A stretch of DNA of 64,000 nucleotides from Natranaeroarchaeum aerophilus (GTDB lineage: Archaea; Halobacteriota; Halobacteria; Halobacteriales; Natronoarchaeaceae): contig NZ_JAKRVY010000002.1 in NCBI RefSeq assembly GCF_023638055.1, forward strand, positions 310,001 through 374,000, in the 5' to 3' direction. How positions within the stretch are numbered: the first letter of the stretch is position 1; each line of letters opens with the position of its first letter. Shown piece by piece: positions 1,623-62,233 of the stretch. Under the pieces are notes generated by a model. The model searched no databases. It saw only the letters and a program-made list of their open reading frames with translations, and was not told the origin of the DNA. The translations under genes and the position numbers were made by a program.

Positions 1623-2719
1623 GCGACACGAGGATGGAACTGGTCGATGACCTGCTTGCGGGCGACTATCGCGCCCTCGCAAGGGCAATTACCACGATCG
1701 AGAACCGTCAGGATGGGTATCGGGACCTCGTTGCCACACTGCACGAACACACCGGGAACGCCGAAGTGATCGGGATCACGGGCAGTCCGGGCTCGGGCAA
1801 GTCGACGCTCGTGGACAAACTCGCGCTCGCCTACCGCGAACGCGGCGAACGGGTTGGTATCGTCGCCGTCGACCCCTCATCGCCGTACACCGGCGGTGCC
1901 GTCCTCGGGGACCGGATCCGGATGGCCTCCTCGGTCGGCGACATGGATGTCTTCGTCCGCTCGATGAGTGCCCGTGGGAGCCTTGGCGGGCTCTCAATGG
2001 CGACCGCGGACGCCGTCACGGCGTTCGACGCCTTCGGGATGGATCGGGTGATCATCGAGACGGTCGGCGCGGGACAGAACGAGATCGATGTCGTCCGCGC
2101 GGCCGACACCGTCGCCGTGCTCGTCCCGCCGGGAAGCGGTGACACCGTCCAGACGCTCAAGGCCGGGATTCTCGAAATCGCGGATGTCTTCGTGGTCAAC
2201 AAGGCCGATCTGGACGGCGCGGATCGCACCGTCACGGAGCTACGGGAGATGGTCGGGCTGGGCAATGACGTGACCCCGATCCTCGATCACAGCGGAAAGC
2301 AGGGACGCGGAGCGGGAGACGTGGCGGCCGGTGACACGACGCCGGACAACGGGGCGGCAGACACCACGACCGCCGACGCGACGCCGAACGACGAGGCGGG
2401 GTGGACGCCGCCGATCGTCGAGACGGTGGCGACGCGGGGCGACGGCGTCGACGAGCTGATCGCGGAGTTCGAGGCCCACGCGAGCTATCTCGACGGAACC
2501 GGCCGCCGGGCGGAGCGCGAACGGACGCGCTCGGCCGAGGAGCTCCGGCGGCTCCTGCGAAGCGATCTCAACGGGCTGGTCGAAGCGGAGATCGAACGCC
2601 GTGGGGGCATCGACGCGCTGGTCGACGAAATCGTCGATGGGCGACAGGACCCCTACTCGCTGGCGGACAGCCTACTCGCTCCGGTCGAAGACTGTCTTAC
2701 GGAGCGGACCGACGAGTGA
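1619..2719 (+). CDS. meaB: Methylmalonyl-CoA mutase-associated GTPase MeaB
   Basis: A 366-residue G3E-family P-loop GTPase. The Walker A motif GSPGSGKST is near residues 55-63, NKAD is the G4 motif, and SARGSLGG is a family block. MeaB gates cobalamin loading and protects or reactivates methylmalonyl-CoA mutase, which agrees with its four-base overlap with the B12-binding subunit gene. Between about residues 218 and 262 there is an unusual low-complexity insertion rich in Gly, Asp, Thr and Ala that is not part of the canonical fold. The C-terminal helical region is present, so the protein looks complete. Confidence 0.93.
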   Translation: MSDTRMELVDDLLAGDYRALARAITTIENRQDGYRDLVATLHEHTGNAEVIGITGSPGSGKSTLVDKLALAYRERGERVGIVAVDPSSPYTGGAVLGDRIRMASSVGDMDVFVRSMSARGSLGGLSMATADAVTAFDAFGMDRVIIETVGAGQNEIDVVRAADTVAVLVPPGSGDTVQTLKAGILEIADVFVVNKADLDGADRTVTELREMVGLGNDVTPILDHSGKQGRGAGDVAAGDTTPDNGAADTTTADATPNDEAGWTPPIVETVATRGDGVDELIAEFEAHASYLDGTGRRAERERTRSAEELRRLLRSDLNGLVEAEIERRGGIDALVDEIVDGRQDPYSLADSLLAPVEDCLTERTDE

Positions 2720-33226: not shown

Positions 33227-33511
33227 TCAATCGTCATCAGCAGTGTATGCACCCCCACGGCGTTTGATACGCCCAATGATCATCCGCCGTTGGCCTCGGC
33301 GGAACCGCACGGACAATCGGAACCCACCGACTCGGACCTTCCGATACGGGCTATTCTGAAGCGGCTCTCCGTAGTCTGGTGGATCACGCCACGGTGAATC
33401 GACAATCTCATCGAGTTTGTCGAGAATGCGGTCCTGGTCGGTCGGCGGTAGCTTGTCAAGGTCGTTCTGTGCCTTCGCTGCGAGCTCCCACGTCCACTCC
33501 TCGTCACTCAT
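33227..33511 (-). CDS. RelE/ParE-superfamily toxin
   Basis: A 94-residue protein with the RelE fold pattern: WTWELAAKAQNDLDKLP helix pair, a linker with PWRDPPDYGEPL, and the strand-rich C-terminus YRKVRVGGFRLSVRFRR then IIGRIKRRGGAY. RelE-type toxins cut mRNA in the ribosome; ParE types poison gyrase. The basic C-terminal strands favour the RelE type. Its start at 33511 overlaps the antitoxin stop by eight bases, the usual arrangement of a type II pair. Confidence 0.85.
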   Translation of the reverse strand: MSDEEWTWELAAKAQNDLDKLPPTDQDRILDKLDEIVDSPWRDPPDYGEPLQNSPYRKVRVGGFRLSVRFRRGQRRMIIGRIKRRGGAYTADDD

Positions 33512-33785
33512 TGCCCGTGCCGAACCGCTCGCGCGCTTCGTCTGCCGACATCGTCTGCTCCGAGCGGATATCCGCATCGGCGTCGAGAAGCGCGACGAGT
33601 TCGTCCCGGTCAAACGTCGGGAACTCGACCGCATCACGGAGGGTGTAACGGATGAACTCGCTTCTGCTGTTGAAGCCGCGGCCCTGCCACGTACCGTCTA
33701 TCTCGTCGAGGAACGACTCGGTGACTTTGAAATTTACCGTGACGATTTCCTCGTCGTCGTTATTGTTCGTAGTTGCTCCACACAT
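33504..33785 (-). CDS. Ribbon-helix-helix antitoxin
   Basis: A 93-residue protein. Residues about 10-55 form a ribbon-helix-helix DNA-binding fold (IVTVNFKVTESFLDEIDG, then FNSRSEFIRYTLRDAV). The acidic C-terminus (LLDADADIRSEQ, MSADEARERFGTGNE) would wrap the toxin. RHH antitoxins repress their own operon. I place the start at 33785 (MCGATTNNN); an ATG two codons upstream, or one at 33848, is possible. The start region lies about 70 bases from the tRNA-Gly-derived array. Confidence 0.82.
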   Translation of the reverse strand: MCGATTNNNDDEEIVTVNFKVTESFLDEIDGTWQGRGFNSRSEFIRYTLRDAVEFPTFDRDELVALLDADADIRSEQTMSADEARERFGTGNE

Positions 33786-33854
33786 ATGCATGTAACACGT
33801 CTGTCTTACGCATAGTCGTTTCGCCGGGAACCGATGAAGGGAGTTCACGCGCTA

Positions 33855-33892
33855 CTTGTCGGTTGGAAATCGGAGAAGTGCGTCGGCGGGGA
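33855..33892. repeat. 38-bp direct repeat, left copy (tRNA-Gly 3' junction duplicate)
   Basis: Identical to 34337-34374. The shared 38 bases hold 24 bases of the 3' flank of tRNA-Gly plus the last 14 bases of the tRNA itself, so this is a duplicate of the tRNA/flank junction lying 482 bases away. It looks like an attachment-site pair. Confidence 0.85.
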
Positions 33893-33939
33893 GTTCGCTG
33901 AGTTGTGCGAAGCGAACGTCGGTCGACGGCTGTCGACCG

Positions 33940-34020
33940 GAATTTGAACCACGCGAAGACGGTCCTGCTCACTTCGTTCGCGGGCTGCGTCTTCTCTACT
34001 TCAAATCCCCTCGTACCGCA
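33940..34020. repeat. tRNA-derived palindromic unit A (tRNA-Gly array)
   Basis: Left arm GAATTTGAACC, inner arms GAAGACG and CGTCTTC, right arm CTTCAAATCCCC, then TCGTACCGCA. The outer arms equal the T-arm of tRNA-Gly in opposite orientations. The centre (GCGAAGACG...CTTCGTTCGC) is shared with the units beside tRNA-Leu at 61.9-62.1 kb. Confidence 0.8.
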
Positions 34021-34080
34021 TTCCTCTCGCAACCGTTGCTCGCGACACAGCAGTCGCTCGCTGGTTTGCTTCGAGAGAAG

Positions 34081-34142
34081 TGCGTCGGCGGGCATTTGAA
34101 CTCGCCGAGACTCGCTTCACTCGTCTCGTCTGCTCAAATCCA
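34081..34142. repeat. tRNA-derived palindromic unit B (tRNA-Gly array)
   Basis: Begins with a copy of the tRNA-Gly 3' end (TGCGTCGGCGGGCATTTGAA) and closes with CTCAAATC. The inner stem is CGAGAC/GTCTCG around TCGCTTCACTC. One base differs from the real tRNA (C for G/A in the T-arm). Confidence 0.75.
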
Positions 34143-34170
34143 CACGTTGCGATTCTGCGGTTCACGGGGT

Positions 34171-34199
34171 GACGAGCACACGCTACGCGGTGCTCGTCG
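34171..34199. repeat. 29-bp palindrome, copy 2
   Basis: GACGAGCAC...GTGCTCGTC is a perfect 9-bp stem here. It pairs with the copy at 33163-33191 on the other side of the RHH-RelE module. Confidence 0.75.
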
Positions 34200-34218
34200 A
34201 AGTTGTTCACCGCAAGAA

Positions 34219-34296
34219 TGCGTCGGCGGGGATTTGAACCCGATTGCAAATCCTCACGAGTTCGGATTTGCGTGGTTCAAATCCCCTCGTACCGCA
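34219..34296. repeat. tRNA-derived palindromic unit C (tRNA-Gly array)
   Basis: Starts with an exact copy of the tRNA-Gly 3' end (acceptor strand plus T-arm). It folds as GGGGATTTGAACC against GGTTCAAATCCCC, with inner stem GCAAATCC/GGATTTGC. It ends with the same TCGTACCGCA as unit A. Confidence 0.82.
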
Positions 34297-34336
34297 TGCA
34301 CCGATTTCACGAATCGCGGCGCGATGAAACGCACCG

Positions 34337-34374
34337 CTTGTCGGTTGGAAATCGGAGAAGTGCGTCGGCGGGGA
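34337..34374. repeat. 38-bp direct repeat, right copy (spans the real tRNA-Gly 3' end)
   Basis: Identical to 33855-33892. It contains the last 14 bases of tRNA-Gly and the adjoining 24 bases of flank, marking the right border of the array. Confidence 0.85.
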
Positions 34375-34431
34375 TTTGAACCCCGGTTGTGACCATGGCA
34401 AGGTCACGTGATACCACTACACTACCGACGC
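34361..34431 (-). tRNA. tRNA-Gly (anticodon GCC)
   Basis: A 71-base cloverleaf on the minus strand. Acceptor GCGTCGG pairs with CCGACGC, and the discriminator is A. D-arm region is TAGTGTAGTGGTATCA, anticodon stem-loop GACC-TTGCCAT-GGTC, T-arm GGGGTTCAAATCCCC. No intron and no encoded CCA. Its 3' side is followed by the palindromic array and the RHH-RelE pair. Confidence 0.96.
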
Positions 34432-34571
34432 GCCCTGTCTGCATTCACAGATAACGAGAGACTGTTGTATAAGAGTTGCGAAAGTGAGGCGCTTCGGGAG
34501 GAATAACCACGGTACGGAGCCACGATATTGATCGATTCGCTCCCGAAACACCCGAAACCGCTCTCGACGCC

Positions 34572-61825: not shown

Positions 61826-61926
61826 ATGTAAATCGACGGCGTATCGTCACAAAAGAATTCCGCTGCGTAGACTATCTGGTCGAACAGGACCGACACTGAG
61901 TGTAACTCGAAAGAACAGTCGGAATA

Positions 61927-61980
61927 GGATTTGAACCACGCGAAGACGTGCTCGCTTCGCTGCGACTCAACTCCGCTCGT
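61927..61980. repeat. tRNA-derived unit, degenerate (tRNA-Leu array)
   Basis: GGATTTGAACCACGCGAAGACG followed by TGCTCGCTTCGCTGCG, then sequence that no longer pairs and a weak GTTCAG. The first half matches the left half of the complete unit at 62036; the right arm has decayed. Confidence 0.75.
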
Positions 61981-62035
61981 TCAGTATCCGCTCACAGCAA
62001 CTGCACTTGTCCGAGTCGAGAACTGGCCGCGGGAC

Positions 62036-62098
62036 CGGATTTGAACAACGCGAAGACGTGCTCGCTTCGCTGTGCGCGTCTTCTCTCGTTCAAATCCG
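62036..62098. repeat. tRNA-derived palindromic unit (tRNA-Leu array)
   Basis: CGGATTTGAAC pairs perfectly with GTTCAAATCCG 63 bases apart, with inner stem GAAGACG/CGTCTTC around TGCTCGCTTCGCTGTGCG. Just to its left, 62029-62046 copies the acceptor and T-arm 3' strand of tRNA-Leu (GCGGGACCGGATTTGAAC). Confidence 0.85.
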
Positions 62099-62149
62099 CT
62101 CCTGCTCCCTCACTGCAAACTGCTCGCTACGCTCGCAGTTTTTGTTCAG

Positions 62150-62233
62150 TGCGCGGGACCGGATTTGAACCGGCGGACCCCTACGGGATAGCGTCCTAAG
62201 CGCTACGCCTTTTCCTGGCTTGGCTACCCGCGC
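62150..62233 (-). tRNA. tRNA-Leu (anticodon UAG)
   Basis: An 84-base class II tRNA on the minus strand. Acceptor GCGCGGG pairs with CCCGCGC, and the discriminator is A. Anticodon stem-loop TAGCG-CTTAGGA-CGCTA gives UAG (reads CUN leucine codons). The long variable arm is TCCCGTAGGGG and the T-arm CCGGTTCAAATCCGG. No intron and no encoded CCA. Confidence 0.96.

Follow-up and report, generated by a model that had tools for sequence, protein, structure and literature searches.

An array of palindromic units 3′ of tRNA-Gly(GCC)

The window analysed here is a 64,000-nucleotide stretch of the Natranaeroarchaeum aerophilus genome (contig NZ_JAKRVY010000002.1, positions 310,001 to 374,000). It contains a tRNA-Gly(GCC) gene that ARAGORN places on the minus strand, so that 33855-34359 is the 3′ flank of this gene. 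Read in the sense of the tRNA, the gene is followed by three units, each ordered h1 - r - h2 - R. In each unit h1 and h2 are hairpins, R repeats nucleotides 54-73 of the tRNA, and r is the reverse complement of approximately nucleotides 54-64 (Table 1). An earlier note on this DNA had drawn attention to the array, and all of the sequences it named are present where it placed them. The three additional copies of the tRNA 3′ end that it described are the R elements, the third of which is degenerate and interrupted. Of the T-arm copies that it saw in both orientations within the units, those in reverse complement are the r elements, with that of unit 1 matching at 13 of 13 positions over 34274-34286, and the "right terminus" that it found to be common to units corresponds to the tail of h1 plus r, read in the tRNA sense (ATGCGGTACGAGGGGATTTGAA).

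Table 1. Elements of the tRNA-anchored arrays. Positions are those of the window unless another sequence is named.
Feature	Position	Strand	Basis or remark
tRNA-Gly(GCC)	34360-34431	minus	ARAGORN; Rfam RF00005, 65.9 bits; nt 54-73 (34361-34380) are the template of R
Unit 1 h1 (spacer hairpin adjoining the tRNA)	34287-34360	minus	sequence and fold
Unit 1 r (reverse-complement T-arm)	34276-34286	minus	sequence
Unit 1 h2 (inner hairpin module)	34239-34275	minus	sequence and fold; CACGC...GCAATCGGG type
Unit 1 R	34219-34238	minus	sequence; 20/20 copy of tRNA nt 54-73
Unit 2 h1	34144-34218	minus	sequence; DNA fold z -3.5 over 34150-34215
Unit 2 r	34132-34143	minus	sequence
Unit 2 h2	34101-34132	minus	sequence
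Unit 2 R	34081-34100	minus	sequence; 19/20 copy of tRNA nt 54-73
Unit 3 h1	34010-34080	minus	sequence
Unit 3 r	33999-34010	minus	sequence
Unit 3 h2	33949-33999	minus	sequence; GTAGAGAAGACG...CGTCTTCGCGTGG type with C-GNA-G loop
Unit 3 R (degenerate and interrupted)	33879-33948	minus	T-arm part 33932-33948, acceptor part 33879-33893
24-nt repeat of the immediate tRNA 3′ flank, distal end of array	33855-33878	minus	same as 34337-34360
tRNA-Leu(TAG), anchor of second array in the window	62149-62233	minus	ARAGORN
Unit 3′ of tRNA-Leu(TAG)	62025-62148	minus	r 62088-62099, h2 62046-62088, R 62025-62045
Second, degraded unit of tRNA-Leu(TAG) array	61927-61973	minus	sequence
Interrupted tRNA-Cys	L382 (NZ_CP119561.1 about 240000), 2430-2568		Haloarcula halophila plasmid

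The h2 module of unit 1 is also present in the congener G033. When stability as single-stranded DNA was compared with that of shuffled sequences, the unit at 34212-34300 stood out strongly (z -4.2) and the other two only weakly. An Rfam scan of 33700-34450 returned only the tRNA itself above threshold, with no match to the units, and no recombinase, integrase or other element gene was found among the ten neighbouring ORFs. Directly beyond the array lies a pair of small ORFs (33227-33848, minus strand), the second of which matches ParE_toxin (PF05016, 2.5e-7) and the first of which looks like its antitoxin.

Anatomy and folding of the units

The boundaries of the units are fixed, at T54, at nucleotide 73 and at an r of approximately 11 nucleotides. 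In a set of 138 distinct units, identity between R and the tRNA is 86-100% over nucleotides 54-73 and 54% at position 74, and r is complementary to tRNA nucleotides 54-64 and at chance level from 65 on. Units were found by similarity to their own tRNA, and the bias-free measures are limited to the outer positions of r and a pattern that contains no tRNA sequence (see below). The outer four positions, which played no part in finding r, match the unit's own tRNA in 301 of 552 cases, compared with 219 +/- 9 after shuffling (z 9.4). The earlier note had allowed that the arms might resemble tRNA-Gly no better than unrelated sequence; they fit their own tRNA better than they fit other tRNAs. At tRNA-Gly(TCC) in four congeners, the R copies and the tRNA have the same C or T allele, which implies concerted evolution.

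The h2 module combines a stem with an internal loop, and many copies show tandem G.A pairs and a C-GNA-G triloop. Among units picked without the h2 pattern, this triloop is found on the sense strand in 51 of 85 and on the antisense strand in none, and the h1 motif GARC..GYGA is similarly one-sided (sense 56/82, antisense 1/82). The tRNA-sense strand folds more stably than the antisense strand (p 3e-10 with RNA parameters; DNA parameters give a like result). A covarying pair outside the search pattern, X5-Y1, is CG in 21 cases, TA in 10, GC in 2 and TG in 1; r:R mismatches at T54, T55 and T60 are G.T in 26 cases and of other kinds in 3; and paired sites show fewer substitutions (18/654 versus 32/419). 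GNA triloops are exceptionally stable in DNA. Since they predominate in the units and GNRA tetraloops are nearly absent, we lean towards the view that the hairpins act as single-stranded DNA rather than as RNA.

Units at other tRNA genes of the same and related genomes

When the array was used as a query against its own genome, twelve further places matched, and those that we opened lay 3′ of tRNA-Asp, Ser, Leu, Thr, Gly and Tyr genes and of one degenerate tRNA. Other tRNAs of this genome have the same arrangement on their 3′ side, so the array in the window is not a product of chance. In this genome and its congener about one tRNA gene in two is followed by units, and each unit bears the 3′ end of its own tRNA, even where the T-loop is unusual (Lys-TTT, His, Leu-TAA and Lys-CTT).

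In surveys that took tRNA loci one by one, in genomes that are species representatives and with the tRNAs themselves masked, a copy of the tRNA's own nucleotides 54-69 was found within 600 nucleotides 3′ of 21/42, 22/43, 14/31 and 9/31 tRNAs in four genomes, against 2-3 with shuffled tRNA ends. The total is 66 of 147 on the 3′ side and none of 147 on the 5′ side. The value of 21/42 is that of the window's genome, where the 5′ count is 0/42 and the shuffled ends give a mean of 2.3. In a methanogen-side control, none of 27 tRNAs was followed by a copy of its own end.

Two unusual tRNA-like genes were seen along the way. In one (G000:C16:5044-5148; L014, L058), the end of an h2 module (TTCGCGTGG) replaces the 5′ side of the T-stem, as if a deletion had fused tRNA and unit. 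The other, on a Natrinema megaplasmid (L384; CP031304.1 about 235300), is a tRNA-Glu-like gene with an intron-like insert that ARAGORN does not call, followed by a unit.

Distribution across taxa

The unit family is restricted to Halobacteria. The pattern GGATTTGAA N20-50 TTCAAATCC occurs in 226 of 292 Halobacteria genomes, representing 69 of 77 genera, with no match for the reversed control, and 28 of 30 such loci in other genomes were located 3′ of a tRNA. Phylum-wide, it was found in 62 of 81 Halobacteria and in none of 312 other Halobacteriota genomes; for an arm variant with TTCGAATCC, the corresponding counts were 27/41 and 0/196. The least biased test used a 30-nucleotide h2 core, with no tRNA sequence in the pattern, which was scanned in 84,980 species. 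All 54 matches fell in haloarchaeal contigs, one of which is assigned to a Bacteroidetes MAG, apparently through misbinning; 47 lie 49-334 nucleotides 3′ of a tRNA on the same strand, none is antisense, and the remaining 7 are at contig ends or beside an uncalled tRNA. The earlier note had left room for units scattered at random sites away from tRNA 3′ ends, and this result speaks against that. Its view that the array is neither a CRISPR nor a plain tRNA duplication, and is bound specifically to tRNA 3′ ends, was upheld. The array that it treated as local is real, but its scale had been missed: the system is Halobacteria-wide.

A chance origin was rejected, with reversed control patterns giving no match in every genome, and so was a viral one, with the arm pattern at background level in viral contigs (106 of 2.9 million). 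The h2 module is absent from the viral and phage collections searched, and a plasmid search returned just three matches to it, two at a tRNA 3′ end and one inside a tRNA. The idea that GNA hairpins are general haloarchaeal intergenic sequence was also rejected: the 64-kb window holds 3 matches, 2 of them within units. Haloferax species also bear units (L245, L249, L250, L255, L256). In one case (L251, L289) the same haloarchaeal array is found in a Halobacteriales MAG and on a contig assigned to a Bacteroidetes MAG, the latter contig being probably misbinned.

Turnover and exchange of modules

Units come and go quickly in evolution. Comparison with the congener G033, a genome in one contig, revealed clean whole-unit differences at Gly-CCC (approximately 103 nucleotides), His, Leu-TAA and Cys, where a whole-unit indel reads as gain or loss alike; in multi-unit cases the extra unit adjoins the tRNA, and at Val-TAC the extra unit lacks R. 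Two further congeners have few units in common at orthologous tRNAs although most of the flanks are homologous. The suggestion in the earlier note of repeated insertion or copying is only part of the picture: whole-unit presence and absence in congeners fits it, but units are also shaped by deletions between R copies, by tandem duplication and by the exchange of orthologous tRNA loci.

The hairpin modules are exchanged as well. In the congener comparisons h1 is swapped while h2 is kept, and the reverse. A 43-nucleotide h2, identical but for one base, is found at Val in Natronorubrum, Phe in Natrinema and Leu and Gly in Haloarcula, and the r arms beside it differ, each matching the local tRNA. 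Cross-genus h2 pairs of at least 90% identity, a set enriched for the type picked by the pattern, join different tRNAs in 171 cases and the same tRNA in 44. The best similarity between units at different tRNAs is approximately 0.75 both within a genome and between genera, and so gives no sign of recent bursts; nor were near-identical whole units found at two tRNAs of one genome, which argues against recent transposition.

Four identical tandem units spaced at 111 bp (G038:C1:2656898-2657280) are a recent expansion. The 3′ flank of tRNA-Leu(TAG) (gene and array at window 61900-62233), unlike other tRNA flanks, is almost identical in G000 and G033 (1420 common 16-mers), a resemblance that suggests recent exchange.

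Comparison with known systems

The units fit no class of repeat or mobile element known so far. Integron cassette arrays (attI/attC) come close in several respects: both have a folded imperfect palindrome with an asymmetric internal loop and a variable apical part, and an array anchored at one site with extra units beside the anchor and direct repeats between units. However, the units carry no cassette genes, and their arms are tRNA T-arm sequence that changes with the tRNA. R starts with GTTCAAA or GTTCGAA rather than with the attC R box GTTRRRY, and for the integron integrase TIGR02249 there were only partial matches, far below the cut-off of 265, in G000, G033, G055 and G106. As for a folded single-strand site with strand preference, the sense-strand structure is clear and the recombination site is a candidate one. 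The att sites of archaeal tRNA-targeting tyrosine recombinases (SNJ2, pNOB8 and others; PMC8371274) differ in that the units are non-coding and approximately 100 bp long, have an inverted arm and conserved hairpins, and occur at half of all tRNAs.

Among short repeats, the SMR, PATE and MITE repeats of Haloquadratum are likewise non-coding and haloarchaeal, contain palindromes and in some cases measure 80-110 bp, but they target IS605/PATE elements or other mobile DNA and have no tRNA-derived arms, and SMRs make no target duplication (PMC3119063). REP/BIME palindromes and IS200/IS605 ends are also short extragenic hairpins with mismatches, but are not tRNA-bound, and their Y1 enzyme is absent from unit-rich genomes. 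A palindrome in Methanopyrus kandleri, reported as specific to that species, also lies 3′ of approximately half of the tRNA genes of an archaeon; it is, however, a short CGTTA(N)9TAACG about 10 bp after the tRNA, without tRNA copies (PMC5217627). A CRISPR array was rejected because the intervals are conserved hairpins with an inverted arm, not identical repeats with unique unstructured spacers. CRISPR, simple att remnants and chance are excluded in practice.

We found nothing like these units in the open-access PMC literature; an earlier description in subscription papers is possible. If roughly every second tRNA gene in an archaeal class has structured repeats next to it, genomes that have been studied intensively would hold a major feature that went unnoticed. 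The units may be traces of a so far undescribed process that inserts or copies DNA at these genes. Arms matched to the local tRNA, together with modules common to different tRNAs and genera, call for an explanation by either a mechanism of insertion or copying or an RNA function linked to tRNAs, in each case one as yet unknown; haloarchaea amenable to genetics offer a test of both.

Possible origins of the units

The explanation that we prefer, while giving it somewhat less than an even chance, is that the units are a Halobacteria-specific family of non-coding, tRNA-anchored palindromic cassettes, gained at the DNA level between G53 and T54 of the tRNA gene. We infer that this gain would come about through a process acting at that position on a folded strand made up of the r:R helix and the h2 hairpin, the simplest candidate being a tyrosine recombinase for which half of the T-arm would serve as an 11-bp core arm. 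A cassette entering there would supply its own tRNA 3′ end, so that the tRNA would stay intact and the old 3′ end would become the next R. Losses would come from recombination or slippage between R copies, and the cassettes, working in an attC-like manner though not as integrons, would then be neutral or mildly selfish passengers, absent where an operon needs the 3′ flank. Consistent with this proposal are the confinement of tRNA-end copies to the 3′ side of tRNAs, the position of 47 of the 54 tRNA-free h2 matches on that side and on the same strand, the sharp R and r boundaries, the match of outer r to its own tRNA and the common Gly-TCC alleles, the clean indels with the extra unit next to the tRNA, the shuffling of h1 and h2, the 43-nucleotide h2 with different arms at different tRNAs, and the sense-only triloops, sense-strand stability and scarcity of GNRA loops, which would suit single-stranded DNA hairpins. 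An independent pointer to the same site is a tRNA-Cys on a Haloarcula halophila plasmid, in which a 69-nucleotide insert with an h2 module and a second hairpin sits exactly between G53 and T54. A tRNA intron seems an unlikely reading of this insert, inspection by eye having revealed no bulge-helix-bulge at the junction.

All four genomes examined have tyrosine recombinases, a point in favour of the proposal, but we found no link between any of these and the units and no recombinase beside the window array, and the integron integrase falls below cut-off in all four. R departs from the attC box, and a circle of approximately 100 bp would be very small for a double-stranded integrase. The whole-unit indels could equally be deletions between R repeats, and one genome never holds near-identical whole units at two tRNAs. 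Simple cassette transfer also fails to explain the exchange of h2 between tRNAs with different arms, and does not account for the match of r to each new tRNA. A broader formulation, possible but in our view rather doubtful, is that Halobacteria in general possess a hitherto undescribed DNA process that attaches short hairpin modules to tRNA 3′ ends and copies both arms from the tRNA at the site, so that each element would be fitted to its target as it enters. tRNA genes would then anchor a cassette system for which no enzyme is known.

The main rival, which we consider unlikely, is that selection maintains the units as RNA structures. Transcription running on from the tRNA promoter would yield a 3′ trailer or a decoy, able to pair with the T-arm and acceptor or to imitate them, and a conserved haloarchaeal protein would bind it. 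Structure in the tRNA sense only, the preference for G.T over other r:R mismatches, a covarying X5-Y1 pair that is CG, TA or GC in 33 of 34 cases (with one T-G), the slower change of paired sites and the conservation of the 30-nucleotide module across families would all be expected of such a trailer. It is harder to reconcile with the copying of the acceptor part of R (nucleotides 65-73), which has no partner in the unit, with fast whole-unit turnover between congeners, with the half of the tRNAs that lack units, with the T-runs that precede the units after many tRNAs, and with the near absence of GNRA tetraloops. A scenario with no dedicated enzyme appears less likely still. Here, forks stalling at tRNA genes would undergo fold-back template switching to produce r, hairpin-assisted slippage would duplicate R, and arrays would spread by homologous exchange of orthologous tRNA loci. 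This is the only reading that explains a new r at each tRNA; it accounts for r and R matching the local tRNA and evolving in concert, and both the tandem 111-bp units of G038 and the near-identical tRNA-Leu(TAG) flanks agree with it, but it fails on h2 modules conserved to 43 nucleotides between genera at different tRNAs, on the fixed length of r and on the restriction to Halobacteria.

Two further proposals seem highly improbable. In IS608 the order is guide - hairpin - target, and r-h2-R would fit this order if the units were IS200/IS605- or REP-like single-stranded DNA elements, with h1 and h2 as end hairpins, R as cleavage site or target and r as a lengthened guide on the 5′ side of the hairpin foot; a Y1 transposase would move them. 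Hairpins with conserved mismatches, with YGAR tandem GA and GNA loops, are in keeping with such elements, but R is 20 nucleotides long and duplicated, and the transposase domain PF01797 is found in only 52 of 79 genomes. The proposal is weakened because PF01797 is missing from unit-rich genomes, namely the complete genome G033 (approximately 30 units) and G055, G005 and G028, which all have units. We give just as little credence to decayed attachment sites of ordinary tRNA-integrating plasmids or viruses. In archaea, att sites often lie at tRNA 3′ ends (PMC8371274), tyrosine recombinases are present, and R (nucleotides 54-73) is the direct repeat of a tRNA 3′ end, but such sites would not explain the conserved h1/h2 grammar or the inverted arm, there are no remnants of element genes, and the module is absent from viral and phage collections, with few plasmid matches.

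Tyrosine recombinase genes lie within approximately 3 kb of tRNA-Glu(CTC) and tRNA-Pro(GGG) (G033:C1 near 1460655 and 1030276; G000:C4 near 12841), and these two tRNA genes have no units in G033 and G000. The plasmid-borne interrupted tRNA-Cys is one of at least 22 clustered tRNAs next to a TROVE gene, and tRNA clusters linked to TROVE are already known (PMC6333295).
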